Shown here one piece after another: positions 1 through 42,887 of a stretch of 64,000 nt of DNA (position 1 is its first letter; each line of letters begins with the position of its first letter). The stretch spans positions 1,922,001 to 1,986,000 of the forward strand of contig NZ_CP011504.1 of assembly GCF_001028665.1 (NCBI RefSeq), read 5' to 3'. Made by a program: the position numbers and the translations under genes. The notes beneath the pieces were generated by a model that saw only the letters and a program-made list of their open reading frames with translations, was not told the DNA's origin and searched no databases. Origin of the DNA: Burkholderia pyrrocinia. GTDB lineage: Bacteria; Pseudomonadota; Gammaproteobacteria; Burkholderiales; Burkholderiaceae.

Positions 1-2
1 CG

Positions 3-281
3 CAGATCGACGTCTGCGGCAACCTCGCCGCGCAACTGCATCGGGGGGAGCGCGCGATCGTGGGCGTGATGATCGAGTCGTTCCTCGTCGAGGGGCGGCA
101 GGACCTGGTGCCGGGCACGCCGCCGGTGTTCGGCCAAAGCATTACCGACGCATGTCTCGGCTGGAATCACACGGCCGAGCTCGTCGAGCAGTTGGCTGCC
201 GCGGCGGTTGCGCGGCGGCGTTCGCCAGCCGGCTTCATCGCGCACGGCGCCGCCGTCGCGATGCAGGCCGTTTCCTACTGA
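3..281 (+). CDS. DAHP synthase, class I (3' end only)
   Basis: This is the C-terminal ~92 residues of a class I 3-deoxy-D-arabino-heptulosonate-7-phosphate synthase, the first enzyme of the shikimate pathway (PEP + erythrose 4-phosphate). The visible part carries the family's C-terminal signatures GVMIESFLVEGRQDL and GQSITDACLGW, including the Glu of the metal site in VMIES. The gene runs off the left edge. It ends 13 bp before the Rieske oxygenase gene, so the two are probably co-transcribed. A DAHP synthase beside a second shikimate kinase and a prephenate dehydratase suggests dedicated precursor supply for the adjacent biosynthetic genes rather than housekeeping aro function (inference). 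Confidence 0.9.
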   Translation, partial: QIDVCGNLAAQLHRGERAIVGVMIESFLVEGRQDLVPGTPPVFGQSITDACLGWNHTAELVEQLAAAAVARRRSPAGFIAHGAAVAMQAVSY

Positions 282-294
282 AAGAGGAGCTCTC

Positions 295-1554
295 TTGAAC
301 TCACCCATCGACATCGCCCGCGCGCTCGACTGGAAAGGCGACGGCGCCAGCCGCACGCCATACGAGGCGTACACGAGTGAAGCGCTGTACCAGCGCGAAC
401 TCGAGCGCCTGTTCTACGCGAATCACTGGTGCTACATCGGCCTCGAAGCCGAAGTGCCGTCTCCCGGCGATTTCCAGCGCACGGAAGTCGGCGAGCGATC
501 CGTCGTGATGACGCGCACGGAGGACGGCGAAATCGTCGTCTTCGAAAACGCGTGCGCGCACCGCGGCATGCAGTTCTGCCGCGAGCGCTCGGGGAAAGCG
601 AAGGATTTCCACTGCCCGTATCACCAGTGGAACTACGACCTGAAGGGTAACCTGATCGGCGTGCCGTTCCGGCGCGGCGTGCGTCAGGGCGGCACGATCA
701 ACGGCGGCATGCCGGCGGATTTCGATCCGGGCAAGCATGCGCTGCGGCGCCTGCGCGTGTCGACGCGCGGCGGTGCCGTGTTCGCGTCGTTCGACGAGAA
801 CGTCGAGTCGTTCGAGGATTTCCTCGGCCCGCGCATCCTGCCTTATTACGATCGCCTGTTCCACGGCCCGAAGCTGACCGTGCTCGGCTACACGCGGCAG
901 CGCGTGCCGAGCAACTGGAAGCTGATGGTCGAGAACATCAAGGATCCGTATCACGCCGGGCTGCTGCATACCTGGTTCGTCAACTTCGGCCTGTGGCGCG
1001 CGGACAATCCCGCCAAGCTCGTGACCGACGCGCATCACCGGCATGGCGCGATGGTGTCGATCCGCAGCGGCGGCGGCGGCGGCGAGGTGACCCACAACGT
1101 GACGAGCTTCAAGGATCGCATGACGCTGCACGACGACCGCTTCCTCGATGTCGTGCACGAACCGTGGTGGGGCGATCCGACCGTCGTGATGCTCACGCTG
1201 ATGCCGAGCGTCATCATCCAGCAGCAGGTCAATGCGCTGTCGACGCGCCGCATCCGGCCGATCAGCCCGGGCGTGTTCGACTACGTGTGGACGCATTTCG
1301 GTTTCGAGACCGACACCGAGGAGATGACGCGGCGCCGTCTGCGCCAGGCCAATCTGTTCGGGCCGGCCGGCTTCGTGTCGGCGGACGACGGCGAGGTCAT
1401 CGAATGCGTGCAGCAGAGCTTCGAGCAGATCCAGCACGGCAACGTCTACAACGAACTCGGCGGCCGGCAGATCGACGAGCAAACCGACCATATGGTCAGC
1501 GAAACGCTGGTGCGCGGCATGTACCAGTACTGGCGCCAAGTGATGGAGGCCTGA
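295..1554 (+). CDS. Rieske oxygenase large subunit (salicylate 5-hydroxylase / anthranilate dioxygenase type)
   Basis: 419-aa alpha subunit of a Rieske non-heme iron aromatic-ring hydroxylase. The [2Fe-2S] motif is C87-X-H89-X17-C107-X2-H110. The mononuclear-iron segment is [10 protein letters not shown] (H220, H225). Stretches such as [19 protein letters not shown] are characteristic of the NagG/AndAc subgroup, which hydroxylates ortho-substituted benzoates such as salicylate or anthranilate. I chose TTG at 295 because a strong GAGGAG Shine-Dalgarno lies at 284-289 and the protein then starts like the family. The small subunit follows at once. The substrate is unknown; a hydroxylated aromatic or tropone intermediate is possible given the shikimate and ACAD genes nearby. 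Confidence 0.9.
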
Positions 1555-2082
1555 ATGAGCACGATCACGACACGAACGGGCCGTCCGGCCGCCGAGCCGC
1601 ACGCGGGCGGCGCGAGCTTCGAGGATTTCTATTCACTCGTCCAGCTCAACGCGCGGTATGCGGCCGTGCTCGACGGCGGCGACTGGGATGCGTGGCCGGA
1701 ATTCTTCGTCGAGCAATGCCGGTACACGGTGGTGCCGCGCGAGAACCACGAGCGCAACCTGCCGCTCGCGGTGATGGATTTCGAGAGCAAGGGCATGCTG
1801 AAGGATCGCGTCTACGGGATCAAGGAGACGCTGTTCTTCGACCCGTACTACCAGCGCCACGTGATCGGGCTGCCGCTCGTCACGTATCTCGACGACACGG
1901 CGATCGAGGCGGAGACGAACTACGCGGTGCTGCGCACGAAGACCGAGCAGATGAGCGACGTGTACAACACGGGGCGCTACCTGGACCGGATCGTGCGCAC
2001 GCCGCAGGGGCTGCGTTTCGAGTCGCGCATCTGCGTCTACGACAGCGAGATGATTCCGAACTCGCTGATTTTCCCGATCTGA
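1555..2082 (+). CDS. Rieske oxygenase small (beta) subunit
   Basis: 175-aa beta subunit with the NTF2-like cone fold that packs against the alpha subunit in heteromeric ring hydroxylases. It has no cofactor of its own. The segment [18 protein letters not shown] near the N-terminus and the [25 protein letters not shown] region are typical of the family. The ATG directly follows the TGA of the large-subunit gene, indicating translational coupling. Length is normal for NagH/AndAd-like subunits (~160-180 aa). Confidence 0.9.
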
Positions 2083-2096
2083 ACGAGGTGCCGAAA

Positions 2097-2447
2097 GTGA
2101 CTATGGAATGGATCGATGCGGTCGCGCCGGAAGCGGTGCGCACCGACGGAATACTCGGCGTCTGGGTGGGCGGCCGCGACATCGCGCTGTATGCGGTCGG
2201 CGACGAGATCTTCGCGACCGAGAACCAGTGCACGCACGGCGACGCGCGACTGAGCGACGGCTTCCTGCTCGACGACGAGATCGAATGCCCGCTGCATCAG
2301 GGGCGCTTCAGCGTGCGGACCGGCATTGCGCTGTGCGCGCCGCTGACGACGTGCGTGCGTACCTATCCGGTGAAGATCGAGAACGGCCGCGTGTTCGTAC
2401 AACTCGCGCCGGCCGATGCGGCGGCGCCGGCGGAGGCGCGATCATGA
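2097..2447 (+). CDS. Rieske-type ferredoxin of the oxygenase
   Basis: 116-aa [2Fe-2S] ferredoxin that would pass electrons to the oxygenase. Rieske ligands are C45-X-H47 (CTH) and C64-X2-H67 (CPLH). I prefer GTG 2097 because AGGTG at 2086-2090 is well spaced; ATG 2103 is the alternative. No ferredoxin reductase is encoded in this operon or elsewhere in the window, so the reductase must lie to the left of the window or be shared from another system. The stop overlaps the next start (ATGA). Confidence 0.88.
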
Positions 2448-2755
2448 GCGCGTACGTGGTGTTCGATATCGACGTGCACGACGTCGACGCATACCAGGCG
2501 TACCGCCGGCTCGGCGCGCCGACGGTGGCCGCGTACGGCGGGCGCTTCCTGGTGCGCGGCGCGGAAGTCGAGACGCTGGAAGGAGACTGGGCACCGAAGC
2601 GCGTCGTCGTGCTCGAATTCGAGTCGGCGGAGCGCGCCCGCGAGTGGTATCGGTCGGAAGGCTATCAGGCGGCGAAGCGGCTGCGCGAGCCGGCCGCGCG
2701 GACGATCGGCATCCTCGCCGACGGCTACGTGCCGGCCGCCGGCGATCCGCGTTAA
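2444..2755 (+). CDS. DUF1330 family protein
   Basis: 103-aa protein of the DUF1330 family (dimeric alpha/beta ferredoxin-like barrel). It shows [18 protein letters not shown] at the N-terminus, then [18 protein letters not shown] and [19 protein letters not shown]. Family members are small and of unknown enzymatic role, often placed in catabolic or biosynthetic operons. The start codon overlaps the ferredoxin stop (ATGA), so it belongs to the Rieske operon and may act on the unstable product (inference). It is the last gene before a strong terminator. Confidence 0.85.
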
Positions 2756-2769
2756 GCGGTGCAGGTGAA

Positions 2770-2809
2770 GGGGCGCCGCGCCGTGTCGATCGGCGCGGCG
2801 CCCCTTTTT
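2770..2809. terminator. Rho-independent terminator between convergent operons
   Basis: Perfect 13-bp G+C-rich stem (2770-2782 with 2792-2804), 9-nt loop, then five T on the + strand (2805-2809). It follows the DUF1330 stop by 14 bp and terminates the Rieske operon. The stem can also serve the convergent efflux operon, although the A/T tail on that side is poor. Confidence 0.9.
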
Positions 2810-2817
2810 CATTTGCG

Positions 2818-4356
2818 TCACGCGTGGCGGTAGCGGATCGACCAGACCGTCAGCAGCGTCGCGCCGAACAGCAGCAGGCAGCCGAACGAGAAGTCGTTCA
2901 GCGCGAGCATGTGCGCTTCGACGTCGATCGCATGCGAGACCGACGCGAGCGCGCCGGACGGCGACAGCCCCGCGTGATCGAGCCGCGCGAACCAGTCGCC
3001 GGACGCGAAATCGTACGGCGTGATGTGGTCGACGAGATAGGTGTTGTGCACGCGGGAGCGGCGCTCGAAGTAGGTCGGCGCAACCGACGTCGCGACGCTG
3101 GTGCCGATCCGCCGCAGCGCGTTCTGCAGCCCGGATGCCGCGGGCAGCCGCTCGCGGGGCAGCCCGGCGAGCGAAAGCGACACGAGCGGCGTGATGAAGA
3201 ACGCGGTGGCGGCGCCCATCAGCAGCGAATTGGCGGCGATGTCGCCGACCGTCACGTCGCTGTTGAAATGCATGCGCCAGAACGACGCGGCGCCCCAGCC
3301 GACGAGCGCGACGGTCGCGAGCAGGCGCGGGTCGGTGCGGCCCTGGAAGCGGCCGAGCAGCGGCGCGATCACGATCCCCGCGAGACCGAGCGGCGCGGTG
3401 GCGATGCCGGCCCAGGTGGCCGTGTATCCCTGCTGGGTCTGCAGCCACAGCGGCACGAGCACCAGCGCGCCGAAGTAGAGCCCGAAGCCGACCGTGATCG
3501 CGAGCGTGCTCGTCGTGAAGTTGCGGTCCGCGAACAACCGCAGGTCGACGATCGGGTGGCTGTCGGTCAGCTCCCAGAGGATCAGCGCGACGAACGACGC
3601 GGCGCCCACGACCGCCAGCATGCGGATTTCGTCGGAGGCGAACCAGTCGAGGTTCTGGCCGCGGTCGAGCAGCAGCTGGAACGAACCGAACGCGGCGGTG
3701 AGCAGCAGCAGCCCGACGACGTCGACCGGCAGCCGCCGCGTCGCGTTGTCGCGTCCCGCCAGCAGCCGCGCGAGCACGCCCAGCACGAGCACGCCCGGCG
3801 GCACGTTCACGTAGAAGATGTACGGCCAGCTCAGGTTGTCGGTGATCCAGCCGCCGGCGATCGGCCCGAGCACCGGCGCGACGAACGTCGTGGTCTGCCA
3901 CACGGCCAGTGCGACGTGGCGGCGCGTCGACGGGAACACCGCGAGCAGCAGCGCCTGGGACAGCGCGGTGATCGGGCCCGACGCGGCGCCCTGGAGCGCG
4001 CGAAACAGCAGCAGCGACTCGAAGTTCGGCGCCATCCCGCACAGGACCGACGTGAGCACGAACAGCAGCACCGACACGCGGAACAGCCGCACCTGGCCGA
4101 AGCGCTGCGTGAGCCAGCCGGTGAGCGGCAGCGTGATCGCGAGCGGCGTCGCGAACGAGGTCAGCATCCACGTGCCCATGTCCGGTGCGACGCCGAGATC
4201 GCCCGCGATGGTCGGGACGGCGACGTTCGCGATCGTCAGGTCGAGCGTCTGCATGAAATTCGCGACGCTGACCGCGATCGCGACGAGCGCCAGCGGCATG
4301 CCGGCGAGCGGTTCCAGCGGCAGTTTCGGCGCCGCGTTCCGGGCGAAGAAGCGCAT
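2818..4356 (-). CDS. EmrB/QacA-type MFS drug exporter (DHA2)
   Basis: 512-aa, 14-TM inner-membrane proton antiporter of the DHA2 family. Motif A-like DxxGRR region, LDLTIANVAVPTIAGDLG in TM1 and the motif C region (GPIAGGWITDNLSW) are visible. It lies 2 bp downstream of the HlyD adaptor and completes a tripartite pump with the outer-membrane factor. The position beside a biosynthetic cluster suggests export of, and self-resistance to, its product. It could also be a general drug pump. Confidence 0.9.
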   Translation of the reverse strand: MRFFARNAAPKLPLEPLAGMPLALVAIAVSVANFMQTLDLTIANVAVPTIAGDLGVAPDMGTWMLTSFATPLAITLPLTGWLTQRFGQVRLFRVSVLLFVLTSVLCGMAPNFESLLLFRALQGAASGPITALSQALLLAVFPSTRRHVALAVWQTTTFVAPVLGPIAGGWITDNLSWPYIFYVNVPPGVLVLGVLARLLAGRDNATRRLPVDVVGLLLLTAAFGSFQLLLDRGQNLDWFASDEIRMLAVVGAASFVALILWELTDSHPIVDLRLFADRNFTTSTLAITVGFGLYFGALVLVPLWLQTQQGYTATWAGIATAPLGLAGIVIAPLLGRFQGRTDPRLLATVALVGWGAASFWRMHFNSDVTVGDIAANSLLMGAATAFFITPLVSLSLAGLPRERLPAASGLQNALRRIGTSVATSVAPTYFERRSRVHNTYLVDHITPYDFASGDWFARLDHAGLSPSGALASVSHAIDVEAHMLALNDFSFGCLLLFGATLLTVWSIRYRHA

Positions 4357-4358
4357 CG

Positions 4359-5558
4359 TCAGGCTCCCGGTGCGAGCGGGCGCGCGCCGCTGTTCGCGCG
4401 AATCGTCTCGGCGACGAGCGCATCGCCCGCTTCGTCGTCGTCACGATAGATCGACGTGGCGTCGATCGACCGGCGCGCCTCGGGCGGACGGGCGGGCGGC
4501 GACGCCGATGCGGTGCCGGGGCCGTGATCGACCGGCACCGATGCCGTCATCGACAGGCCGATGCGCAGCGGGTGCGCTTGCAGCTCGGCGGGATCGAGCG
4601 CGATCCGGACCGGCACGCGCTGGACGACCTTGATCCAGTTGCCGGTCGCGTTCTGCGCGGGCACGGCCGCGAAGGCGGCGCCGGTGCCGGCTTCGAGCCC
4701 GACGACGCGCCCGTGGAACACCACGCCGCTGCCGTACAGGTCCGAGAACAGGTCGACCGGCTGCCCGGCGCGCATGCCGCGCAGTTGCGATTCCTTGAAG
4801 TTGGCTTCGACCCACACGTGATCGAGCGGCACGAGCGCCAGCGACGGCGTGCCGGGCGACACGTGCTGGCCGACCTGCACGACCCGGCGCGTGACGAGCC
4901 CGCCGAGCGGTGCGCGTATTTCGGTGCGGCGCAGCGCGAGCGCCGCGCTGCGGACCCGGGACGCCGCCGCGCGCACGAGCGGATTCGTGTCGATCGACGT
5001 GCCGTCGGTGTGCGCGAGCGTCGCGTCGTACGCGGCCTGCTGCGCGTTCAGCGCGGCCGCCGCGCCGTCCATCGTATCCCGCGCGTGGCGCAGATCCTCG
5101 CGCGACACGCCGCCGTCTTGCGCGAGGCTCAGCCGGCGCTGCAGGTCGTCGTTCGCCTTGGACCATTCGGTGCGCCGCACCCGGATCTGCGCTTCTTCGC
5201 GCACCGCGTCCGCATGCGCGGTGCGGTATTGGCGCACCGCGTGCGCGAGTTGCGCGACCGCTTCGTCCAGCGCGAGCCGGGCATCGGTCTTGTCGACGCT
5301 GAACAGCAGGTCGCCCGGACGGACCCAGTCGGCGTTCTGCACGCGCACTGCGTCGACGGTGCCGCCGATCTGCGGCGAGATCTGCACGACGTCGCCGGAC
5401 ACGTACGCATCGTCGGTCGTCTCGGTGCCGCGCGTGGTGGCCCACGCGGCGGCGGCGAGGCCGGCCGCGCCGGCGAGCGCGATGAAGAACCAGCGGAAGT
5501 AGCGCCGGCGCGCGCGTTGCAGCGACGGCCCGGCGGCGGGGGATTCAGGACGGTTCAT
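4359..5558 (-). CDS. HlyD/EmrA membrane fusion protein
   Basis: 399-aa periplasmic adaptor. One N-terminal TM helix (about residues 22-42, FFIALAGAAGLAAAAW) is followed by TTDDAYVSGDVVQISPQIGGTVDAV, the hallmark start of the EmrA barrel. An alpha-helical hairpin (~90-200) and a second biotinyl-lipoyl half with beta-barrel (ALALRRTEIRAPLGGLV, GNWIKVVQRVPVRI) follow. Its ATG overlaps the stop of the outer-membrane-factor gene (ATGA). It connects the EmrB-like exporter to the outer-membrane channel. Confidence 0.92.
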   Translation of the reverse strand: MNRPESPAAGPSLQRARRRYFRWFFIALAGAAGLAAAAWATTRGTETTDDAYVSGDVVQISPQIGGTVDAVRVQNADWVRPGDLLFSVDKTDARLALDEAVAQLAHAVRQYRTAHADAVREEAQIRVRRTEWSKANDDLQRRLSLAQDGGVSREDLRHARDTMDGAAAALNAQQAAYDATLAHTDGTSIDTNPLVRAAASRVRSAALALRRTEIRAPLGGLVTRRVVQVGQHVSPGTPSLALVPLDHVWVEANFKESQLRGMRAGQPVDLFSDLYGSGVVFHGRVVGLEAGTGAAFAAVPAQNATGNWIKVVQRVPVRIALDPAELQAHPLRIGLSMTASVPVDHGPGTASASPPARPPEARRSIDATSIYRDDDEAGDALVAETIRANSGARPLAPGA

Positions 5559-7000
5559 TGCGTGACTCCAGTGGAAGGGGTGCCGCCGAGCGCGGCGATC
5601 AGGCGGGCATGCTCGATCGCGAACGACGCATCCGCACGGGCGACCGACGCGCGATCCTCGAGCAGCCGGCCTTCCGCGAGCAGGACGTCGAGGTAGCCGG
5701 AAATGCCTTTCCGATAGCGCTGCGTCTCGATGGCGTAGGTCTGTTGCGCGCGCGACAGCGCCTCGCGCTGAAGCGCGCGCTGCCGGCCGAGCGTGTCGAT
5801 CTGGACGAGGGTGTCGCCGACCTGCGCGAGCGCGTTGACGACCGTGTCGTCGTACACCGCGACGGCGGCGTTGTAGGCGGCGGTTTGCGCGCGCAGGCCG
5901 GCGCGCAGGCGCCCGCCCTCGAAAATCGGCAGCGTGATCGCGGGGCCCGCGCCGAACGTGCCGCTGTTGCCGTGGAACAGCGCGCGGAAGCCGAAGCTCT
6001 GCACGCCGGCGAAGGCCAGCAGGTTGACGTCCGGATAGAACGCGGCGCGCGCCGCGTCGATGTTCGCCGCTTCGGCTTCGACCCGGTAGCGCGCGGCCAG
6101 CACGTCCGGCCGACGGCCGACCAGCGCCGCGGGCAGGACGGCCGGCATCGGCAGCTCGGCCGCCGGCGGCGCGGCGGGCGTCAGCGCATCGGCGTAACCG
6201 GGCCCCCGGCCGACGAGCGCGGCGAGCCGGTGGCGCAGCCGGGCCGACGCGGCCGCATGCGTGTTGATGTCGGCCTGCGCGTGCGGGATGGGTTCGCTCG
6301 CCCGGAGCACGGCGACCTGCATGTCGAGACCGGCGTCGGCGCGTTGCGACGTGAGGCGGAGCAGATAGCTGTGCTGCTGCAGCGTATCGCGCGCGATCGC
6401 GAGCAGTTGCTGTTCGAGCGCGAGCTGCAGATAGGTTTCGACGATCGCCGCCTGCAGCGACACGGTGGCCGCGTGCTCGAGCGCGCGCTGCTGGTCCGCG
6501 CGCAGCGCGGCGGCGCGCGCCAGCGCGTGCTGCCGGCCGGCGAGGTCGAGATCCCACGACGCGCCGAGGAGCGCCTGCGCGTCGACCTGCCAGTGTCCGG
6601 CCGCGGGCGGCGGCGTCCGGTAGCTGCCGGGCAGGCGCGTCGGCACCGCGCTCGCCGTCGCGCCGAGTTGCGGCAGCAGCGCGGCGTTTTCGACGTCGGC
6701 GTCGGCCAGCGCCTGCGCGACGCGTTCGCGCTGCGCCTGCAGCGTCGGTGCGCCGGCCAGCGCATCGTCGACGAGGCGATCCAGCTGCGCATCGCCGAAC
6801 GCGGTCCACCAGCGCTCGGCGATCGTCGGCGAGCCGGCGCCGGCGGAGCGGATCGCGGCGCCCGCATCGAGCTGCTCGACGGGCGTGATCCGGGCCGCCG
6901 GGAGTTGCGGGCCGAACGGGGCGCAGCCGGCGATCGCGAGCGCGGCGAGCGCGGGAACCAGGCGGCGGGCGCCGCGCGCTCGGTCGAAGAGGAAGGGCAT
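5555..7000 (-). CDS. NodT/OprM-type outer-membrane efflux lipoprotein
   Basis: 481-aa TolC-like outer-membrane factor with a lipoprotein signal peptide; the lipobox LAIAGC lies near residue 25. Two OEP repeats are visible: TLQAQRERVAQALADADVENAALLPQ in the first and PDVNLLAFAGVQSFGF with FEGGRLRAGL in the second. ATG 7000 has AGGAAA upstream. First gene of a three-gene efflux operon (OMF-adaptor-exporter), reading away from the shikimate kinase gene. An AT-rich palindrome 36-59 bp upstream is a likely operator. Confidence 0.92.
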   Translation of the reverse strand: MPFLFDRARGARRLVPALAALAIAGCAPFGPQLPAARITPVEQLDAGAAIRSAGAGSPTIAERWWTAFGDAQLDRLVDDALAGAPTLQAQRERVAQALADADVENAALLPQLGATASAVPTRLPGSYRTPPPAAGHWQVDAQALLGASWDLDLAGRQHALARAAALRADQQRALEHAATVSLQAAIVETYLQLALEQQLLAIARDTLQQHSYLLRLTSQRADAGLDMQVAVLRASEPIPHAQADINTHAAASARLRHRLAALVGRGPGYADALTPAAPPAAELPMPAVLPAALVGRRPDVLAARYRVEAEAANIDAARAAFYPDVNLLAFAGVQSFGFRALFHGNSGTFGAGPAITLPIFEGGRLRAGLRAQTAAYNAAVAVYDDTVVNALAQVGDTLVQIDTLGRQRALQREALSRAQQTYAIETQRYRKGISGYLDVLLAEGRLLEDRASVARADASFAIEHARLIAALGGTPSTGVTQ

Positions 7001-7035
7001 GGTCGGTTTCCTGTGACGCGATGGCGAACGATTTG

Positions 7036-7059
7036 TATCTAAAAATATATCTTTAGATA
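7036..7059. promoter_or_regulatory. AT-rich operator-like inverted repeat upstream of the efflux operon
   Basis: Perfect inverted repeat TATCTAAA-N8-TTTAGATA in an island of very low G+C inside DNA that is otherwise over 65% G+C by eye. A second overlapping palindrome, ATATCT-TT-AGATAT, lies at 7047-7060. It sits 36-59 bp ahead of the outer-membrane-factor start. MarR-family repressors of EmrAB pumps bind sites of this kind; no marR gene is in the window, so the regulator is unknown. Confidence 0.55.
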
Positions 7060-7153
7060 TTATTTGACGATCGGCAACTGGTAGAAATGGCAGTTCGGCC
7101 GAACCGGCCGGCATCGTTGAAACCGCTGAAGGGGACCGATAAGGTCGCGCGGG

Positions 7154-7678
7154 TTACGCGATCGCGAGCGCGTCGAGCGCTGCCGCGAGCGTTTGGGCGA
7201 CGGACTGGCCCGAGGTATCGATGCGGCAGTGCGCGCAGGCGTGGTACAGCGATTCGCGCGCGTCGTGCAGCGCGGCGAGCGCCGCGCGCGGGTCGGCGAC
7301 GTTCAGCAGCGGGCGGGACGCGTCGTCGCGCGTGCGGTGCCACAGGGTGTCGAGATCGCTCGCGAGGTGGATCACGAAACAGCGCTGGCCGAGCCGGGCG
7401 CGCGTATCGGCGCGCAGCACGGCGCCGCCGCCGGTCGCGAGCACGAGCGCCGGCCCGCGCGTCAGCGCGTCGATGACGTCGGCTTCGCGTGCGCGGAAGT
7501 CGCCCGCATGGAATTGCGCCGCGACGGGCGCGCCGAAGCGCCGTTCGAGTTCGCGGTCGGCGTCGACGAACGGCAGCGCGAGCGCGCGGGCCAGTGCGCC
7601 GCCGAGGGTCGTCTTGCCGGCGCCGGGCATGCCGACGAGCGCGATGCGCGTCGGGCCGGCCTGCGGGCGCGGGCTCAC
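7154..7678 (-). CDS. Shikimate kinase (cluster paralogue)
   Basis: 174-aa P-loop kinase that phosphorylates shikimate at O3. Walker A GMPGAGKT at about residues 14-21, the shikimate-binding DADRELERRFG and FRAREADVI segments, ATGGGAVL, and the lid/RPLL region are all present. The start is GTG 7678 overlapping the previous stop (GTGA), placing it last in the pheA-type operon. Divergence from housekeeping AroK (GDFRAREA instead of GExxFRxxE) and its location suggest a dedicated copy that boosts chorismate supply (inference). Confidence 0.88.
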   Translation of the reverse strand: MSPRPQAGPTRIALVGMPGAGKTTLGGALARALALPFVDADRELERRFGAPVAAQFHAGDFRAREADVIDALTRGPALVLATGGGAVLRADTRARLGQRCFVIHLASDLDTLWHRTRDDASRPLLNVADPRAALAALHDARESLYHACAHCRIDTSGQSVAQTLAAALDALAIA

Positions 7679-8346
7679 AGGCGGCTCCGCAGCGACGGGG
7701 CGCGGCGTGTCACGGCGGCGATGCGCTGCATCCGGACGTAATTGGCGAGCGGGTCCAGCGCATCGGTGATGAAGGTGTGAGGCGCGCCGGGGGCCGTGTC
7801 CAGCGCGATGCCGGCGACCACGAGCGAGCCGTCGCACAGTGCGTCGGCGAGCGCGCCGATCCGGGCGCCAAGCGCCGGCGACGCAGCGCCGAGATCGGCA
7901 ACGACGCGGCGCGAGCGCGGCCAGTCGACCGGCTCGGCCGGGCGTGCCGGCCAGCGCGCCAGCAGGCCGCCGGGCAGCGGCGCCGCGGCCCGTGCCGCGG
8001 ACGTTTCGAGCACCCGCCAGGTCAGCGGCGCCGCGGGCAGGCACGCGCGCCAGCGGCCATAGGCGGTCGCCGCGGTGTCGCCGATCGCCACCGCCGGAAG
8101 CTGGAGCCGCGCGCAGCGCAGCAGCAGGCTCGCGGTGCCGGCGGCGTCGGGCGTGCCGCGCACGAACGGCAGCAGCTCCAGTTCGTCGTCGTATTCGGCG
8201 CGCAGCGCGCGCAGCCATCGTCCGGCGGCGAGCGGCAGGCATCCCGCCGCGGCGATGCCGCACAGCACGAGCAGGCGATCGTCGCGACCGTCGCGAATCG
8301 CGAGCAGCCGGGCGGCGACGCGGGACGAAGCGGGCGCCGTCGTCAT
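7675..8346 (-). CDS. Truncated, catalytically dead DAHP-synthase-like protein
   Basis: 223-aa protein that aligns by eye with class I DAHP synthase (~350 aa). GRDDRLLVLCG matches GNDDRLLVVIG, YDDELELLPFVR matches KDELEIVMRVY, LETSAARAAAPLPGGLLAR matches the [23 protein letters not shown] region, and FITDALDPLANYVRMQRIA matches SITDACIGW...LLRQLA. The metal/PEP motif GPCSIHD has become GIAAAGC, the KNGT lysine is gone, and about 120 residues are missing. Synthase activity is therefore unlikely. It sits between the prephenate dehydratase and shikimate kinase genes with overlapping stop/start codons on both sides. A regulatory or scaffold role is possible. Homology is my reading, not a search result. 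Confidence 0.6.
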   Translation of the reverse strand: MTTAPASSRVAARLLAIRDGRDDRLLVLCGIAAAGCLPLAAGRWLRALRAEYDDELELLPFVRGTPDAAGTASLLLRCARLQLPAVAIGDTAATAYGRWRACLPAAPLTWRVLETSAARAAAPLPGGLLARWPARPAEPVDWPRSRRVVADLGAASPALGARIGALADALCDGSLVVAGIALDTAPGAPHTFITDALDPLANYVRMQRIAAVTRRAPSLRSRL

Positions 8347-9485
8347 CACGCGGCCGGGCCGTCGGTGTGCCCGTCGGTGCCGCCCGCGGCACGCGGATAG
8401 GCGCCGAGGACGCGCAGTTCGGAAGCGGCGAGCGCAATCTCGTCGAGCGCCGCGCGCACGTTCGGATCGAGCGGGTGCCCGCCGAAGTCGACGCAGTACC
8501 GGTACGCATGGCCGGCGCCCCGTGCCGGGCGCACGTCGACCCACAGCAGCGGTGCGCGGTGGTGGGCGAGCGCATCGAATACGCGCGCGAGCGCGTCGGG
8601 CGCATCGGTCGGCCGCAGCACGATGCTGGTGCGGTCGTGGCCGGTCGGGGCGGGCGGCTGGCCGCCGACGATCATGAAGCGCGTGCGGTTGTCCGGGTGA
8701 TCCTGGATCGCGCTTGAGACGATTCGCAGTCCGTAAAGCGCGGCCGCCGGTTCGCCGGCGATCGCCGCGCAGTCGTACAGGTGCGCGGCCTCGCGCGCGG
8801 CCACCGCGTTGCTGGACACCGGGATGCGGCGCAGGCCGGGCGCATGCGCGTCGAGCCACGCACGGCATTGCGCGAGCGCCTGCGGATGGCCGACCACGCT
8901 GTCGACGCCGGCGAGCGATCCGCTGGCGCTCAGCAGGCAATGCGCGACCGGCAGTTCGATCTCGCCCGTGACGGGCGCCGCTTGCGCGATCAGCAGGTCG
9001 AGCGTGCGGGTCACGCTGCCTTCGGAGGAATTCTCGACCGGCACGACCGCGCATTCCGCGTCGCCGCGCGCGAGCGCTTCGAATACCGCGTCGATCGTTT
9101 CGTGCGCCTGCCCACGGGCGAATTCGCCGAAGTGACGCAGCATCGCGGTTTCGGTGTAGGTTCCCGACGGGCCGAGGAACGCGACGGTCGGCAGCGATTG
9201 CGCGTCACGGCTCGCGCTGAACAGCGTCTGCCAGATGGCTCGCAGGTCGCGGTCGCGCAGCCCCCACGGCGCGCGCGTGCACAGCGCGGCGACGATCGAC
9301 GCTTCGCGGGCAGGCTGCCGCACCGTGAGCCCTGCATGCCGCTTGAGATGACCGATCTCGGTGGCGTGAACGATGCGCTGGCCGATCAGCTCGAGAAGCT
9401 GGTCGTCGATCACGTCGATCTGCGCGCGGCGGCGCGCGATCGCATCGTCGACGGACGACGGGGCGGCAAGTTCGGACGGCGTCAT
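8346..9485 (-). CDS. pheA: Bifunctional chorismate mutase / prephenate dehydratase
   Basis: 379-aa P-protein converting chorismate to prephenate and then phenylpyruvate. An AroQ-type chorismate mutase domain (residues ~15-95, RRAQIDVIDDQLLELIGQR) is followed by a prephenate dehydratase domain (~105-285, FLGPSGTYTETA, VPVENSSEGSVTRTLDLL, DNRTRFMIVG) and an ACT domain (~297-365, RTSIVLRPTDAPDALARVFDAL). The ACT domain usually mediates phenylalanine feedback. Start ATG 9485 overlaps the upstream stop and the stop overlaps the next ATG. Placement suggests it directs flux to phenylpyruvate/phenylacetate for the cluster. Confidence 0.92.
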   Translation of the reverse strand: MTPSELAAPSSVDDAIARRRAQIDVIDDQLLELIGQRIVHATEIGHLKRHAGLTVRQPAREASIVAALCTRAPWGLRDRDLRAIWQTLFSASRDAQSLPTVAFLGPSGTYTETAMLRHFGEFARGQAHETIDAVFEALARGDAECAVVPVENSSEGSVTRTLDLLIAQAAPVTGEIELPVAHCLLSASGSLAGVDSVVGHPQALAQCRAWLDAHAPGLRRIPVSSNAVAAREAAHLYDCAAIAGEPAAALYGLRIVSSAIQDHPDNRTRFMIVGGQPPAPTGHDRTSIVLRPTDAPDALARVFDALAHHRAPLLWVDVRPARGAGHAYRYCVDFGGHPLDPNVRAALDEIALAASELRVLGAYPRAAGGTDGHTDGPAA

Positions 9486-10501
9486 GGCGTGTCGATCCGT
9501 GAAGTCGGGGAAACGGACGGGCGGCGTGCGGCGACGTGCGCGGCCGCGCGCGGCTGCACGCGCGCGACGGCGCGGTGGTATTCGGCCTCGAGCCGCTCGA
9601 CGATCTCGGCGACGCTGAGTACCGCGTCCATCGCGCCGACGCCCTGACCGGCCCCCCAGATGTCGCGCCACTGCTTTGCGCCGCCGTCCGGCGAGAAATC
9701 GAGCTGCGCGCCGTCGACCCGCGCGAGCCGGCGCGCGTCGAGCCCGGCCGCTTCGATGCTCTGGCGCAGGTAGTTGCCGTGGACCCCGGTGAACGCGTCG
9801 GTGTAGATGATGTCGGCCGCGTTGGCTTCGACGATCGTGTCCTTGTAGCGCTGCACCACGTTCGCTTCGTGCGACGCCAGGAAGCGCGTCCCGATGTACG
9901 CGAAGTCGGCGCCGAGCGCGCGCGCGGCGGCGATGGCGTCGCCTGTCGCGATCGCACCGGACAGCGCGATGAAGCCGTCGTAGAAGCGCCGCACTTCCGT
10001 GACCAGCGCGAACGGCGACAGCGTGCCGGCGTGGCCGCCCGCACCCGCCGCGACGAGAACGAGGCCGTCGACGCCGGCTTCCAGCGCCTTCTGCGCGTGC
10101 CGCACCGTCGTGACGTCGTGCAGCACGATCCCGCCGTAGGCGTGGATCGCATCGACGACGTCGCGCGACGGCGCGCGCAGGCTCGTGATCATCAGCGGCA
10201 CGCGCCGGTCGATGCAGATGCGCAGATCCTGTTCGACGCGCGGATTCGACGGATGGCAGATATGGTTGACCGCGTACGGGCCGACCGGCGCATCGGGATG
10301 GGCATCCCGGTACGCGCGCAGCGTGCCGTCGATCGTGTCGATCCAGTCGCCGAGTTGCGCGCTGAGCCGCGCGTTGAGCGCCGGAAATGCGCCGACGATC
10401 CCGCTCTTGCACTGGGCGAGCACCATCTCGGGATAGCTCGCGATCAGCATCGGAGACGCAATCACCGGCAGCCGGAGACCCTGCAGAGGAAGCGGAATCA
10501 T
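9482..10501 (-). CDS. Nitronate monooxygenase / 2-nitropropane dioxygenase-like FMN enzyme
   Basis: 339-aa TIM-barrel flavoprotein of the NPD/NMO family. N-terminal LRLPVIASPMLIASYPEMVLAQCKSGIVG, the phosphate-binding LVLVAAGAGGHAG segment and FALVTEVRRFYDGFIALSGAI...GADFAYIGTRF are typical. Family members oxidise alkyl nitronates, but many act on other substrates or as quinone reductases. Overlapping stop/start codons link it to the pheA gene, and 17 bp separate it from the upstream fusion gene. Its part in the pathway is unknown; an oxidative step on a ring intermediate is possible. Confidence 0.85.
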   Translation of the reverse strand: MIPLPLQGLRLPVIASPMLIASYPEMVLAQCKSGIVGAFPALNARLSAQLGDWIDTIDGTLRAYRDAHPDAPVGPYAVNHICHPSNPRVEQDLRICIDRRVPLMITSLRAPSRDVVDAIHAYGGIVLHDVTTVRHAQKALEAGVDGLVLVAAGAGGHAGTLSPFALVTEVRRFYDGFIALSGAIATGDAIAAARALGADFAYIGTRFLASHEANVVQRYKDTIVEANAADIIYTDAFTGVHGNYLRQSIEAAGLDARRLARVDGAQLDFSPDGGAKQWRDIWGAGQGVGAMDAVLSVAEIVERLEAEYHRAVARVQPRAAAHVAARRPSVSPTSRIDTP

Positions 10502-10518
10502 GGTCGGGCTCCGGCTCG

Positions 10519-12108
10519 TCAGCGCGCGAGCGCCGCGCTGTCGCGCCGCTCGTCCAGGCGGCGGTGGAAGCCGTCGCGGCTGACGGCGCAGCGCGTATGC
10601 ACGCCTTCGCCGACGACGCCCACCGCGTCGCGCACCTCGACCCGGTACGTCATCATGCGGCCGTCGACCTCGATCAGTTCGGCGTCGATCGTCACGTCCC
10701 ATTCGGGCGGCGTCGGTGCGAGGTGCTTGATCTCGAAGTTGTAGCCGACCGTCATCTGCCCGGCCGGCAGCAGATGGTCGGTCGCCTGCATGCAGGTCTG
10801 TTCGATGAAGATGATCATGATCGGGCTCGCGAGCGCGTGCGCTTCGCCTCCCCATTGATCGGCGAGCGAAATCGTGTCGACGCGGTGGGTGGCGCGGGCG
10901 CGCAGGCCAGTCTGGATAGTCAAGGTCAGCTCCTGAAGGGGGGATGGAAGGGTGAGCGGGTACGCCGCGCGCGCCGTGGCGGCCGCGCGTCGTTGCATCT
11001 GGCTGAAGATGTTCCGGTAATGCATTTCCTCGGTGCCGCCGGCCGAGCCCATCGCGAGCGCGTCGGCGACGAAGGTGGCGAGCGGGCCGCGCCGGTAGCC
11101 GTCGCTGCCGTGAATCGCGAGCAGGTGCAGCGCGGCCTGCGCGAGATCGCGCGCGCCCGCGAGCTTCGCGATCGAGCAGTTCGCGAGCGCTTCGGGACGT
11201 TGCCCGACGAGTTGATCGAGCGCTGCGCGCGCCGTCCAGCGCGTGCGTTCGATGCCGACCTGGACGTCGACCAGCCGGCGCTGCACGTGCTGATGGGCGT
11301 CCAGCGCGACGCCGAGCGTCTTGCGGGCGCCGGCGTGCGCGAGCGCGTCGGCGAGGAACGGCTGGGTGACGTTCGCGCACAGCAGGCCGAACAGCGCGCG
11401 ATTCATCGACGCGATGTCCATCAGCAGGCGCAGCCCGTCGCCGGGCGCGCCGAGCAGTTCGTCGGCGTCGACGCGCACGCCGGACAGCGCGAGATCGCCG
11501 ATCGGAAGATCCGCGACGCCGAGCGTCGCCTGCGGCGCGCTGCGCTGCACGCCCGAGCGTTCGGGATCGATCAGCACCAGCGCGGTGGCAGGCTTGGCGT
11601 CGCCGGTCAGGGTCGCGACGATCATCATCAGGCGCGCTTCGGGTGCGTGGCTGATGTTGTACTTGTGGCCGTCGAGCCGGTAGTGGTCGCCGTCGCGAAC
11701 GAGGCACGTTTCGAGCGCACGCACTTCGGTGCCGGTGCCTTTCTCCGAGATCGCCGTGGCGCCGATCGCGCCGGACAGCAGCGGCGGCAGATGCCGCGCG
11801 CGCTGCGCGTCGGAACCGTATGCGACGATCGCGCGAATCAGCGTCGCCTGGTTGGCGAGCGCCATCGCGAAGCCGACGGAGCGCAGCGCTGCGGCGACCG
11901 CTTCGAATGCATCGACGAAGTCGTGCCACGTGCGCCCGGCGCCGCCGAGTTCGCGCGGTACGGGCAGGCGCCACAGTCCCGCGTCGGACAATGCATCCCA
12001 TGCATCGCGATGGAACGCGCCGGCAGGGGCGGACCGTGCATGGCGTTCGGCGATATCCCGGTACGTGGCGGTCGTCGTGGGCTGTGCTTCGCTGGCAGTG
12101 AGAGTCAT
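10519..12108 (-). CDS. Acyl-CoA-dehydrogenase-like flavoprotein fused to FlK-type hotdog thioesterase
   Basis: 529-aa two-domain protein. Residues 1-~385 form an acyl-CoA dehydrogenase fold: LGGAGRTWHDFVDAFE, ATAISEKGTGTEVRA for FAD/substrate, KYNISHAPEARLMMIVA, and C-terminal AMGSAGGTEEMHYRNIF, where the usual catalytic Glu of YEGT is absent. Residues ~396-529 are a hotdog thioesterase of the COG5496/FlK group, with candidate catalytic Glu in IFIEQTC and His in KHLAPTPP. In tropodithietic acid and tropolone pathways an ACAD-like flavoprotein (TdaE) and a thioesterase (TdaD) act on a CoA-bound ring, normally as separate proteins. The frame is open throughout. ATG 12108 was chosen for family fit; first gene of the (-) operon. 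Confidence 0.88.
   Translation of the reverse strand: MTLTASEAQPTTTATYRDIAERHARSAPAGAFHRDAWDALSDAGLWRLPVPRELGGAGRTWHDFVDAFEAVAAALRSVGFAMALANQATLIRAIVAYGSDAQRARHLPPLLSGAIGATAISEKGTGTEVRALETCLVRDGDHYRLDGHKYNISHAPEARLMMIVATLTGDAKPATALVLIDPERSGVQRSAPQATLGVADLPIGDLALSGVRVDADELLGAPGDGLRLLMDIASMNRALFGLLCANVTQPFLADALAHAGARKTLGVALDAHQHVQRRLVDVQVGIERTRWTARAALDQLVGQRPEALANCSIAKLAGARDLAQAALHLLAIHGSDGYRRGPLATFVADALAMGSAGGTEEMHYRNIFSQMQRRAAATARAAYPLTLPSPLQELTLTIQTGLRARATHRVDTISLADQWGGEAHALASPIMIIFIEQTCMQATDHLLPAGQMTVGYNFEIKHLAPTPPEWDVTIDAELIEVDGRMMTYRVEVRDAVGVVGEGVHTRCAVSRDGFHRRLDERRDSAALAR
10921..10934 (-). promoter_or_regulatory. Internal ribosome-binding site and TTG at the domain junction
   Basis: Within the fusion gene, AGGAGC (complement of 10929-10934) lies 5 nt before an in-frame TTG (complement of 10921-10923). 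That TTG is codon 396, exactly where the thioesterase domain begins. It could allow separate translation of a 134-aa free thioesterase, or be the relic of a formerly separate gene. Sequence match only. Confidence 0.45.
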
Positions 12109-12635
12109 GTCGATGAGCGGGACCTTGCATGGATCGTGTCGCCAATCTAATGAAAAGCCCCCGGACGAGAAACTGTCAGTTATCGCACTCGAGTGCGACG
12201 CGCATCGGCGAACGATCCGGGCGAAATGCACGATGTGACGAGCGGCGGAACACGCTTGCCGAGCGGGGTCGTGACGCTCGTCGCACGTATCGTTGCGAAG
12301 GATGGCTGACGGGGGATAGCCGGACGGTTCCGGTCACGGCGTGCCGTCGCGGCCAGGGTCGAGTCGCTGCGGCGACGGGAAAGGATTGCGCGCCGACTGG
12401 TGAAGACGCTGTCGCGCGTCGATCGTGACAGCGCGCGGGCCTGCTCGGAGGACGGGCGGTCCAGTGGACGGGTGCCCGCCTATCGCCTTGACCAATTGAA
12501 CCGCAATGGCCCTGATTCATGCAGATCAAAAGGGCGATGTCGAGCGTCTCAAGCGTTGTCCCATCCGTGGCAAAATGCAACTGCCAGCACGCTGTTCGGG
12601 CGGCGCTTGTGTCGAAGGCGAGAGGGAGTCTGTCC
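12109..12635. other. Intergenic region between divergent operons
   Basis: 527 bp between the flavoprotein-thioesterase gene (-) and the ECF41 sigma factor gene (+). It should carry both promoters. The only clear structure is the 16-bp palindrome listed at 12183-12198. Short reading frames here lack ribosome-binding sites and family similarity, so I call no gene. Confidence 0.6.
12183..12198. promoter_or_regulatory. 16-bp perfect palindrome, candidate operator of the biosynthetic operon
   Basis: TCGCACTCGAGTGCGA is a perfect palindrome 75-90 bp upstream of the fusion-gene start. The position suits a transcription-factor operator near the promoter. The regulator is unknown and is not obviously encoded in this part of the window. 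Confidence 0.45.
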
Positions 12636-13517
12636 ATGGACGACGACGCGCATTCCTTTAACGGGATCCGCCCCCGATTGCAGAAGATTGCCTATCGAAT
12701 GCTGGGGTCGGTGGCCGAAGCCGAAGATATCGTGCAGGACGTCTGGCTGCGTTGGCATGCGGCGGCCCGCGAGCGCATCGATAACGCGGAAGCGTGGCTC
12801 GTCGCGGTCACGACACGGATGTCCATCGACCGTCTGCGCGCCGCGAAGATTCAGCGCGAACACTACACGGGCATCTGGTTGCCCGAGCCGCTGATGACCG
12901 AGTCACCGGCCACACCCGAGGAGGTCACGGAGCGCGCAGACGACGTCTCCGTGGCATTTCTGAAGCTGCTCGAGCGGCTGACGCCGGAAGCGCGGGCAGC
13001 CTTCCTGCTGCGCGAGGTGTTCGACGCGGACTACGGCGAAGTCGCTGAGGCCATCGGCAAGACGGAGGCGGCGTGCCGGCAACTGGTAAGCCGTGCAAAA
13101 GCGCAACTACGCGACGAACGCCCGCGTTACGAAGTGTCGCGCGAGACGCATCTTCGCCTGCTGCGAACCTTCGCGCAGGCGCTGGAGGGCGGCGACTTCC
13201 ATGCGATCAACGCGTTGCTGGCCGAAGACGCGATGCTGATTGGCGACGGCGGCGGCAAAGTCCCGAGCGCCCCACAACCGATGGTGGGGGGGCGGCGCAT
13301 CGCGCAGCTTTTCTACGCGCCGTCGCTGCGTTATGGCAGCGAACTCAGCGTCAAGCTCGTCGTGCTCAACGGTCAATGGGCGCTGCTGCGCTTTATCGAA
13401 GGCAAGCTCGAATCGGCACAGTCGTTTGAGACGGACGGCGAGCGCATCGTGCGTATCCATCTACAGCGCAACCCTGACAAGCTCGTACGCATCGCGGCCG
13501 CACACGCCAAAGGTTGA
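12636..13517 (+). CDS. ECF41-type RNA polymerase sigma factor (SigJ-like)
   Basis: 293-aa extracytoplasmic-function sigma factor. Sigma region 2 (RLQKIAYRMLGSVAEAEDIVQDVWLRW, residues ~10-36) and region 4 (LLERLTPEARAAFLLREVFD...EVAEAIGKTEAACRQLVSRAK, ~108-155) are followed by a SnoaL/NTF2-like C-terminal domain (~165-290) containing a degenerate DGGGKV motif. This architecture defines ECF41, whose extension replaces a classical anti-sigma factor. ATG 12636 has GAGGGAG upstream. ECF41 factors usually control a neighbouring small oxidoreductase or AhpD/cupin-type gene; here the next gene is a cupin. Confidence 0.9.
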   Translation: MDDDAHSFNGIRPRLQKIAYRMLGSVAEAEDIVQDVWLRWHAAARERIDNAEAWLVAVTTRMSIDRLRAAKIQREHYTGIWLPEPLMTESPATPEEVTERADDVSVAFLKLLERLTPEARAAFLLREVFDADYGEVAEAIGKTEAACRQLVSRAKAQLRDERPRYEVSRETHLRLLRTFAQALEGGDFHAINALLAEDAMLIGDGGGKVPSAPQPMVGGRRIAQLFYAPSLRYGSELSVKLVVLNGQWALLRFIEGKLESAQSFETDGERIVRIHLQRNPDKLVRIAAAHAKG

Positions 13518-13703
13518 ACGACGATCACTCCCGGGCGCGGACGCGCCTCGACGCGTCGATTGGTGCCTCACGTACAACACGGCGAGTCCGTGCGCACGGC
13601 TACCACGAAACGTCACGCCCACCTACGATGACTTCCCGCGGCCGATGGTCGCCAACAGCGCCCGCGAAGCCCGGGCGCTCACGCATCGTAGCCAGGAGAA
13701 ATC

Positions 13704-14101
13704 ATGACGCAACGTATCGACTCGTGGCCGTCGTTGCCTGCGCATTGATGGCCGAGACCCGCGCCGCACCGCCGGCAGCCAGCGTCGCGCCATTGATGAC
13801 GAAGCCGCTCGACGACTATCCGGGCAAGGAAACCTTGATGATCACCGTCGTCTATCCGCCGGGTGCCGTCGATCCTGTCCATCGACATCATGCGCACGCG
13901 TTCGCCTATGTGCCGGAAGGGTCGATCGTGATGCAAGTCAAGGGCGGCAAGGAAGTCACGCTGACGCCCGGACAGACCTTCTATGAGGGCCCGAACGATA
14001 TTCATACAGTCGGACGCAACGCAAGCCAGACTCGACCGGCAAAGTTCGTCGTGCTGCTGCTGAAGGACACGGGGGCGCCCATTCTGGTGCCGGAGAAGTA
14101 A
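13704..14101 (+). CDS. Exported cupin-domain protein with a probable 1-bp frameshift in its signal peptide
   Basis: The cupin domain (PPGAVDPVHRHHAHAFAYV, metal-binding His cluster; TPGQTFYEGPNDIHTVGRN) is intact and reads to 14101. A good start with AGGAGAA (ATG 13704) lies in another frame and stops after 14 codons. Adding one base near 13714 would join it to RLVAVVACALMAETRAA, an ideal signal peptide. As sequenced, translation would need GTG 13724 or ATG 13748, the latter without an export signal. It is the likely ECF41 target. The frameshift may be real or a sequencing error. Confidence 0.7.
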
Positions 14102-16210: not shown

Positions 16211-16367
16211 CCGCGCCGTCCGGCGGCGCGTCCCGCGATATTGCGCTGCAGCACCAGCCGCGCGTCGTCATCTGAAATTTTTTCAACTATGGCTGAGCGT
16301 TTCCGCGTTGATGCGGGTGCCCGGTGAGCCGACACTCCGGACAACACATCAACACAGGAGACAAGCG

Positions 16368-17117
16368 ATGTTGCTCGACAACAGGACCATCATCGTGACC
16401 GGCGCCGCGTCGCCGCGCGGGATCGGCAAGGCCACGGCCCGCGCGCTGGCTGCGCAAGGCGCACGCGTGGCGATCCTCGACCTTCGCCGCGAGGATGCGG
16501 AAACGGCCGCGGCCGAACTCGGCGCCGGCCATCTCGGCCTCGCGTGCGACGTGACGGACCGCGACGCATGCGCGGCGGCCTCCCGTGCGACGCTGGAGCA
16601 CTTCGGCCGCATCGACGGGCTCGTGAACAACGCCGGCATCACGCAACCCGTGCGCACGCTCGATATCTCGGCGCGCGACTTCGATGCGATCGTCGACGTG
16701 AACCTGCGCGGCACGCTGTACATGTCGCAAGCGGTGCTGCCCGCGATGAAGGCGCAGCGTGGCGGCAGCATCGTCTGCATGTCGTCGGTCTCCGCGCAAC
16801 GCGGCGGCGGCATTTTTGGCGGCCCGCATTACAGCGCCGCCAAGGCCGGCGTGCTCGGCCTCGGGAAGGCGATGGCGCGCGAATTCGGCGCCGACCGGAT
16901 CCGCGTCAATTCGATCACACCGGGCCTGATACAGACCGACATTACCGGCGACAAGCTGACACCCGCGATGCGCGAGGACATCATCAAGGGGATTCCGCTC
17001 GGTCGCCTCGGCGATGCCGACGACGTGGCAAACGCGTGCTTGTTCCTGCTGAGCGACCTGTCGAGCTACCTGACGGGCATCACGCTCGACGTCAATGGCG
17101 GGATGCTGATCCACTGA
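16368..17117 (+). CDS. SDR-family oxidoreductase
   Basis: 249-aa classical short-chain dehydrogenase. The NAD(P) motif is TGAASPRGIG (residues 11-20), followed by NNAGI, Ser in MSSVSAQ, YSAAKAG (catalytic Tyr and Lys) and PGLIQTDI. Asp in AILDLRR suggests NAD preference. ATG 16368 follows AGGAGACAAGCG. First gene of an operon with an ACS transporter and a two-subunit transketolase, so it probably oxidises an imported polyol or sugar-acid to the ketose used by the transketolase (inference). Confidence 0.9.
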   Translation: MLLDNRTIIVTGAASPRGIGKATARALAAQGARVAILDLRREDAETAAAELGAGHLGLACDVTDRDACAAASRATLEHFGRIDGLVNNAGITQPVRTLDISARDFDAIVDVNLRGTLYMSQAVLPAMKAQRGGSIVCMSSVSAQRGGGIFGGPHYSAAKAGVLGLGKAMAREFGADRIRVNSITPGLIQTDITGDKLTPAMREDIIKGIPLGRLGDADDVANACLFLLSDLSSYLTGITLDVNGGMLIH

Positions 17118-17191
17118 CAACGGTGCCGCGACACGCGCGGCGCCGCCCATCATGCACCCGGGACAACCCGGGGCCATGGCAGGAGACAAAC

Positions 17192-18517: not shown

Positions 18518-18557
18518 TTCGATTTGCATTCCTTCCGAAACAATACTGGAGCTATCG

Positions 18558-41088: not shown

Positions 41089-42887
<1,799 letters not shown>

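Follow-up and report, generated by a model that had tools for sequence, protein, structure and literature searches.

We analysed a 64,000-nucleotide stretch of the Burkholderia pyrrocinia genome (NCBI RefSeq assembly GCF_001028665.1, contig NZ_CP011504.1, positions 1,922,001 to 1,986,000 of the forward strand), hereafter the window, whose first 12,108 bases had been predicted to carry a tropolone-type biosynthetic gene cluster with its own shikimate supply and efflux pump. The host genome has 7.96 Mb in four contigs. The cluster has 16 genes and begins about 3 kb upstream of the window, when counted from L007:15042 to window position 12108; here, L007 is the strip before the window, and L007:18001 is window position 1. 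A LysR regulator (L007:15042-15956, + strand) and a TdaD-type thioesterase (L007:16527-16967, - strand) are located outside the window, the latter scoring 44 bits against the 68.7 cut-off of TIGR00051. Then comes a class I 3-deoxy-D-arabino-heptulosonate 7-phosphate (DAHP) synthase of the AroH type (L007:17175-18281, +; NF009396, 506.9 bits, cut-off 463). The original prediction placed this gene in the window, and it is indeed present, but it starts 826 bases upstream and only its tail (3-281) is inside. On the same strand are found a Rieske oxygenase alpha subunit of the salicylate 5-hydroxylase (NagG) type (295-1554; TTG start after GAGGAG), a beta subunit (1555-2082; AndAd-like, under the cut-off of that model), a Rieske ferredoxin (2088-2447), and a DUF1330 protein (2444-2755), the last two assigned by profile matches.

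The minus strand encodes a tripartite pump, recognized by profile matches, with a major facilitator superfamily (MFS) exporter as the inner-membrane part (2818-4356), a HlyD-type periplasmic adaptor (4359-5552 in the scanned frame, the real start being internal), and an outer-membrane efflux protein (5555-7114). On the same strand lie a shikimate kinase (7154-7678), whose GTG start overlaps the stop of the preceding gene, a chorismate mutase/prephenate dehydratase (CM-PDT; 8346-9485, profile match), and a degenerate class I DAHP synthase (7675-8346), whose start overlaps the stop of CM-PDT in the sequence TGATG. They are accompanied by an FMN protein of the nitronate monooxygenase (NMO)/FabK family (9482-10501), identified by profile and alignment, an FlK-type hotdog thioesterase (10519-10923), and a TdaE-like flavoprotein with the acyl-CoA dehydrogenase (ACAD) fold (10963-12108). 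The DAHP synthase, shikimate kinase, CM-PDT, ACAD-like flavoprotein, FlK, Rieske oxygenase, FMN protein, and exporter named in the prediction were all found, every gene passing one Pfam cut-off or more. By the stricter NCBIfam cut-offs several fell short, the shikimate kinase with all the models listed. The DUF1330 gene had been overlooked and the 7675-8346 gene left unannotated. No Rfam match was obtained in the window at the gathering threshold.

The flavoprotein and the FlK-type thioesterase had been described as one protein at 10519-12108. Both domains are there, but they are two genes in close relatives. When Burkholderia relatives were aligned (the 92-98% group), the flavoprotein stopped at TAA or TGA, and FlK started at TTG behind AGGAG. 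In the window, a TAC codon (10960-10962, -) occupies the stop codon site and generates one ACAD-FlK frame, while FlK keeps its own AGGAG and the TTG start at 10923. The single frame is local to this sequence and not general, and the TAC codon is either a strain-level change or a sequencing error. A separate in-frame fusion occurs in Paraburkholderia ribeironis (547 aa) and in protein P0002 (539 aa), suggesting that the flavoprotein and FlK act together. Residues S33, E41, and H67 of the FlK-type protein, hand-counted on the alignment, correspond to T42, E50, and H76 of FlK, which we take to be its Thr/Ser-Glu-His triad; we also assume that COG5496 is the FlK family. A comparison of the 10519-12108 protein with the TdaD family had been suggested, but FlK is not the TdaD homologue; this is the separate upstream gene, 59% identical to TdaD of Phaeobacter inhibens, and a thioesterase of this type does belong to the cluster. 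A TdaE-like flavoprotein (39%) was also seen adjoining an FlK-like gene on the linear Streptomyces rimosus plasmid pSRP1.2 (L039, 15496-22852), in the neighbourhood of ketosynthase III, aminotransferase, and MFS genes. We considered this pair as a relative of the cluster and rejected it, because the ketosynthase and aminotransferase probably indicate another pathway, perhaps an unexplored one.

Next, the flavoprotein was compared with TdaE. It is 43% identical to TdaE of P. inhibens DSM 17395 (WP_014881725.1), and the closest named records are from Burkholderia, e.g., B. cepacia LK29 (98%); no entry named TdaE was among the best 60 of 92 PDB matches. In a 49-row tree, 42 TdaE-like rows were split from 7 ordinary ACADs with a support of 100/100, and the window branch, with 20 rows, was also supported at 100/100. 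A 58-row tree concurred, grouping the protein with TdaE at an SH-aLRT of 99. Long outgroup branches were flagged in these trees, and, of the 24 ACADs with a match in the window genome, 20 were omitted from the 49-row tree, along with 2 of 5 other ordinary ACADs, and 13 from the 58-row tree. The window protein keeps 29 of 47 TdaE-diagnostic residues. These columns were picked for hardly varying among 17 known-side rows and seldom occurring in 14 ordinary ACADs, which fixes the scores of both sets beforehand (42-47 and 0-3, respectively); the window played no part in the choice, and 15 of the 24 own-genome ACADs were omitted from the count. Hence, the predicted TdaE type holds as far as the grouping is concerned, since both trees place the protein with TdaE and not among ordinary acyl-CoA dehydrogenases, but it is on a branch of its own. 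As judged from these comparisons, the protein is TdaE-like and likely to be involved in tropone chemistry, with a functional change being possible. A TdaE branch with altered residues would offer natural variants for the study of TdaE, an unusual flavin dioxygenase defined by oxidizing the ring of the shunt product, cleaving its CoA ester, and epoxidizing it.

The protein encoded at 7675-8346 has a shortened DAHP synthase fold, and its alignments revealed neither GPCSIHD, PRTTxGWKG, nor SHGNS, which we take to be the catalytic motifs of DAHP synthase. This pseudoenzyme is common to tropolone-type clusters. Its gene adjoins that of CM-PDT, and the protein probably serves as a partner in regulation and not as an enzyme. 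The open-access papers searched had nothing pairing a DAHP synthase with a pseudoenzyme, and the conservation of a dead DAHP synthase in these clusters suggests a directly testable way of tuning precursor flux. A phenylacetate (paa) pathway with PaaZ had been anticipated elsewhere in the genome. Most paa genes were found there, with PaaA-E, PaaG, PaaI, PaaK, and a PaaN_2 (PaaZ-type) aldehyde dehydrogenase above the NCBIfam cut-offs. A fused paaZ (TIGR02278) was searched for and none was above the cut-off in the genome, the PaaN_2 aldehyde dehydrogenase being present instead.

Among solved structures, the closest relative of the Rieske alpha subunit was salicylate 5-hydroxylase (PDB 7c8z, 643.5 bits), with the runner-up at 289 bits; the score against the NCBIfam model for AndAc was 380 bits, under a cut-off of 750. 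In NagGH, Arg323 binds the substrate carboxylate and Met257 is also a key residue (PMC9060491). Both are kept: their counterparts in the scanned alpha frame (residue 1 at base 301) are R316 and M251, given an offset of 19 between chain and published NagGH numbering that we inferred. No second NagG-type alpha subunit was found in the window genome, where the next best match had 42% identity. To follow its inheritance, 398 genomes of the family were drawn. An alpha match was detected in 92, at 86% or more in 15 and at 71% or less in the other 77, and all of the 15 also have the branch flavoprotein (identity of at least 58%). Within the genus, the flavoprotein branch occurs in 10 of 65 genomes, and these 10 all have an alpha subunit of at least 93%; the draw, in which the presence of all 65 genus genomes is unconfirmed, contained only two other same-genus matches, at 69-70%. 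For five Trinickia-group genomes, the branch was assigned by 58-60% identity, and the related genomes behind these counts are not independent. The two genes are also inherited together when unlinked, since they are about 70 kb apart in a Trinickia genome (G088) and on different contigs in three further genomes (G005, near a contig end, G146, and G183). Moreover, the alpha subunit is the best-conserved cluster protein in G008 and G015, at 93% in each, against 46 to 87% for the remaining 15 proteins. On this evidence, the Rieske oxygenase is the leading candidate for hydroxylating the ring. In the open-access literature searched, no work on a Rieske enzyme in tropolone biosynthesis was found, the matches dealing with other matters as judged by their titles and the opening of their abstracts, and hydroxylation steps on the Pseudomonas tropolone ring are called open (PMC11481866).

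All 16 genes were matched in five other whole-length loci (L087, L040 from B. arboris, L085 with L127, L071 with L128, and L072 with L129), and because they recur together there, their grouping is not due to chance. The DUF1330 gene has two copies in several relatives. In the Trinickia loci L010/L176 and L017/L178, the match for shikimate kinase alone is missing. The cluster occurs in Burkholderia, Trinickia, and Paraburkholderia, and with this spread environmental strains offer a place to look for a product. Partial loci were also found: L171 and L172 lie near contig ends, and L012, L014, and L016 are cut by locus or contig ends. Locus L173 of G088 gave no match for CM-PDT, the pseudo-DAHP synthase, shikimate kinase, the outer-membrane protein, or the flavoprotein, and in L018, L019, L174, and L175 the flavoprotein is without its usual neighbours. 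A group A FAD monooxygenase lies between the exporter and DUF1330 in G008 (L128) and G088 (L173), and the end of one is visible in P. ferrariae. The G088 protein (P0179, L173:6559-7728), encoded about 70 kb from the TdaE-like gene, is closest to 6-hydroxynicotinate 3-monooxygenase (NicC; 308 bits), followed by an entry named 'Tropone 2-monooxygenase' (8rqh; 163 bits). No FAD monooxygenase, including the TrlE-like type that was also looked for, is among the 16 genes of the window cluster, the rest of the genome not having been searched for it, and some relatives do have one. In another genome of the same genus, a flavoprotein fragment covering residues 75-221 (G010:C1:114133-114579, in L060 and L083; 78%) had no other cluster gene match in the surrounding 19.9 kb, and it looks like the remnant of a lost cluster.

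Other features were observed around the cluster. An 86-aa open reading frame between the LysR and TdaD-type genes (L007:16225-16485, +) resembles, by eye, the DNA-binding domain of LuxR-type proteins, with the signal domain lacking, and is a possible second regulator. Immediately past the cluster, a sigma-70-family factor, extracytoplasmic function-like, is followed by a cupin protein (12519-14101). Further on, a transketolase is encoded as separate N-half and C-half genes, with a short-chain dehydrogenase/reductase gene and an MFS gene just ahead (16365-20398), and a neighbouring gene pair at 41089-42887 resembles, by eye, an IS21-type transposase pair.

From the observed gene content, families, phylogeny, co-inheritance, and paa genes, we infer a route whose reactions and product are all predicted. 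The cluster DAHP synthase, shikimate kinase, and CM-PDT would provide more phenylpyruvate and, from it, phenylacetyl-CoA, which the chromosomal paa enzymes would turn into the shunt product dihydrotropone-2-carboxyl-CoA. The TdaE-like flavoprotein would oxidize the ring of this compound, CoA would be released by the TdaD-type thioesterase, the FlK-type thioesterase, or both, and the NagG-type Rieske oxygenase would hydroxylate tropolone or a seven-ring acid resembling salicylate. The product would leave the cell through the tripartite pump, with LysR as the regulator. With moderate confidence, we favour a TdaE-type biosynthetic cluster producing and exporting a troponoid that probably bears one more hydroxyl on its ring. 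This reading is supported by the TdaE phylogeny, the diagnostic residues, the TdaD-type thioesterase, the backbone shared with a tropolone-type Burkholderia cluster, and the paa genes, by the relatives that add an FAD monooxygenase, of which the one compared has 8rqh as its second-closest match, by the NagG-type alpha subunit with its kept Arg and Met, and by the co-inheritance of this subunit with the flavoprotein, even when unlinked. A more detailed version, which we offer only tentatively, is that this locus adds a third kind to the TdaE clusters of Burkholderia, where a dedicated Rieske monooxygenase, akin to salicylate 5-hydroxylase, hydroxylates the seven-membered ring, as the Gram-negative counterpart of Streptomyces TrlE/TrlCD, and the DAHP synthase pseudoenzyme sets the precursor flux as a partner of the cluster DAHP synthase or CM-PDT.

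Several observations weigh against a hydroxylated troponoid. The window branch meets the known TdaE lineages at a 92/85 fork, under the 95 mark; it is a distinct branch, which may lie inside or beside these lineages. Of the 47 diagnostic residues, 18 are changed in the window protein, many of them in the same way across the whole branch, and two genomes of the 17 with the branch flavoprotein among the 398 (G106 and G120) have it without this Rieske form. No Rieske reductase or PaaZ2/ECH gene is among the 16 genes, and the NMO and DUF1330 proteins are without a step in the proposed pathway. No match for FlK, NMO, Rieske, or DUF1330 was found in the tropolone-type clusters L075, L081, and L082 or in 11 further Burkholderia loci, named here group C, and a 2024 paper cautions that many clusters with TpoE-like flavoproteins are probably not tropolone makers (PMC11481866). 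It is conceivable, albeit unlikely, that a TdaE-derived flavoprotein acts on another CoA ester and that the product is a non-troponoid aromatic, e.g., salicylate- or gentisate-like, with a Rieske enzyme of the ordinary salicylate 5-hydroxylase type. The deviating residues, the proximity of the alpha subunit to true salicylate 5-hydroxylase, and the caution on TpoE-like clusters fit this explanation, but no isochorismate synthase or gentisate gene was found among the scanned cluster genes, the TdaD-type thioesterase and prephenate dehydratase indicate a phenylacetate route, and the backbone is common with a tropolone-type cluster.

That same backbone, common with L075, and the production of ditropolonyl sulfide by isolates of the B. 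cepacia complex (PMC7912996) would suit plain tropolone or ditropolonyl sulfide as in other Burkholderia, with Rieske, NMO, and DUF1330 as passengers. We consider this improbable, as the Rieske alpha subunit is the best-conserved protein in G008 and G015 and is co-inherited with the flavoprotein, and the TdaE group read as the sulfur type is in other loci, with no second TdaE-like match in the window genome at E 1e-60. The NagG-like Rieske, acyl-CoA dehydrogenase, and thioesterase domains could also belong to a catabolic island of ordinary aromatic-degradation enzymes; this is very improbable, since the genes feed the shikimate path instead of draining it, an exporter is present, and the flavoprotein falls outside the ordinary ACADs. 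Collectively, the best reading of the locus from its sequence is a new subtype of cluster for a putative hydroxylated troponoid; its Rieske oxygenase was not seen in the related clusters compared.

Previous work described TdaE of B. plantarii and putative clusters in B. plantarii and B. cenocepacia (JACS 2021, PMC8283759), TpoD/TpoE and COG5496 thioesterases in uncharacterised clusters, including one of B. cepacia (mBio 2024, PMC11481866), and the Streptomyces route (Chem Sci 2024, PMC11110157). As stand-ins for B. plantarii TdaE (WP_042624079.1), we used genome G028 and protein P0091 (B. perseverans), the G028 TdaE being near-identical to P0091 and 45% identical to that of the window. The cluster of G028 (L075), of the tropolone-type tda kind reported for B. 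plantarii, has in common with ours LysR, DAHP synthase, TdaD, TdaE, CM-PDT, the degenerate DAHP synthase, shikimate kinase, HlyD, and the outer-membrane protein, whereas no FlK, NMO, Rieske, DUF1330, or MFS match was found within 19.9 kb at E 1e-8. With the tda cluster of P. inhibens, which makes tropodithietic acid, the window cluster shares relatives of TdaD and TdaE. Its glutathione S-transferase (GST) and the next gene, presumably TdaB and TdaC (the labels are ours), had no match in FlK-type loci at E 1e-8, a weak test because the GST query misses group C too. The 11 group C loci share a TdaE-like flavoprotein and a tripartite pump with the window cluster, but their TdaE shares 52-55% identity with the P. 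inhibens protein, and DAHP synthase, TdaD, FlK, and Rieske matches were not found in them; L074, for instance, has GST, PatB-like, and CitE-like genes, as read by eye from protein starts. These loci are likely of the ditropolonyl sulfide type.

The tpo cluster of Pseudomonas, for 7-hydroxytropolone and 3,7-dihydroxytropolone, also has a TdaE-like flavoprotein with a partner thioesterase, but its supply differs, with an acyl-CoA ligase and a thiamine pyrophosphate decarboxylase; neither 'Rieske' nor 'nitronate' is mentioned in the main text of that report (PMC11481866). The trl cluster of Streptomyces, for 3,7-dihydroxytropolone, likewise has its own precursor supply, and it relies on FAD monooxygenases together with a thioesterase of the PaaY type (PMC11110157), neither of which is among our 16 genes; an 8rqh-related FAD monooxygenase does occur in some relatives of the window cluster. 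With NagGH, the window alpha subunit shares the key Arg and Met, but unlike NagGH, this Rieske oxygenase is encoded among biosynthetic genes, and no reductase gene adjoins it. The cluster would supply a strongly co-inherited candidate for ring hydroxylation, whose nearest solved relative acts on salicylate, a benzenoid analogue.

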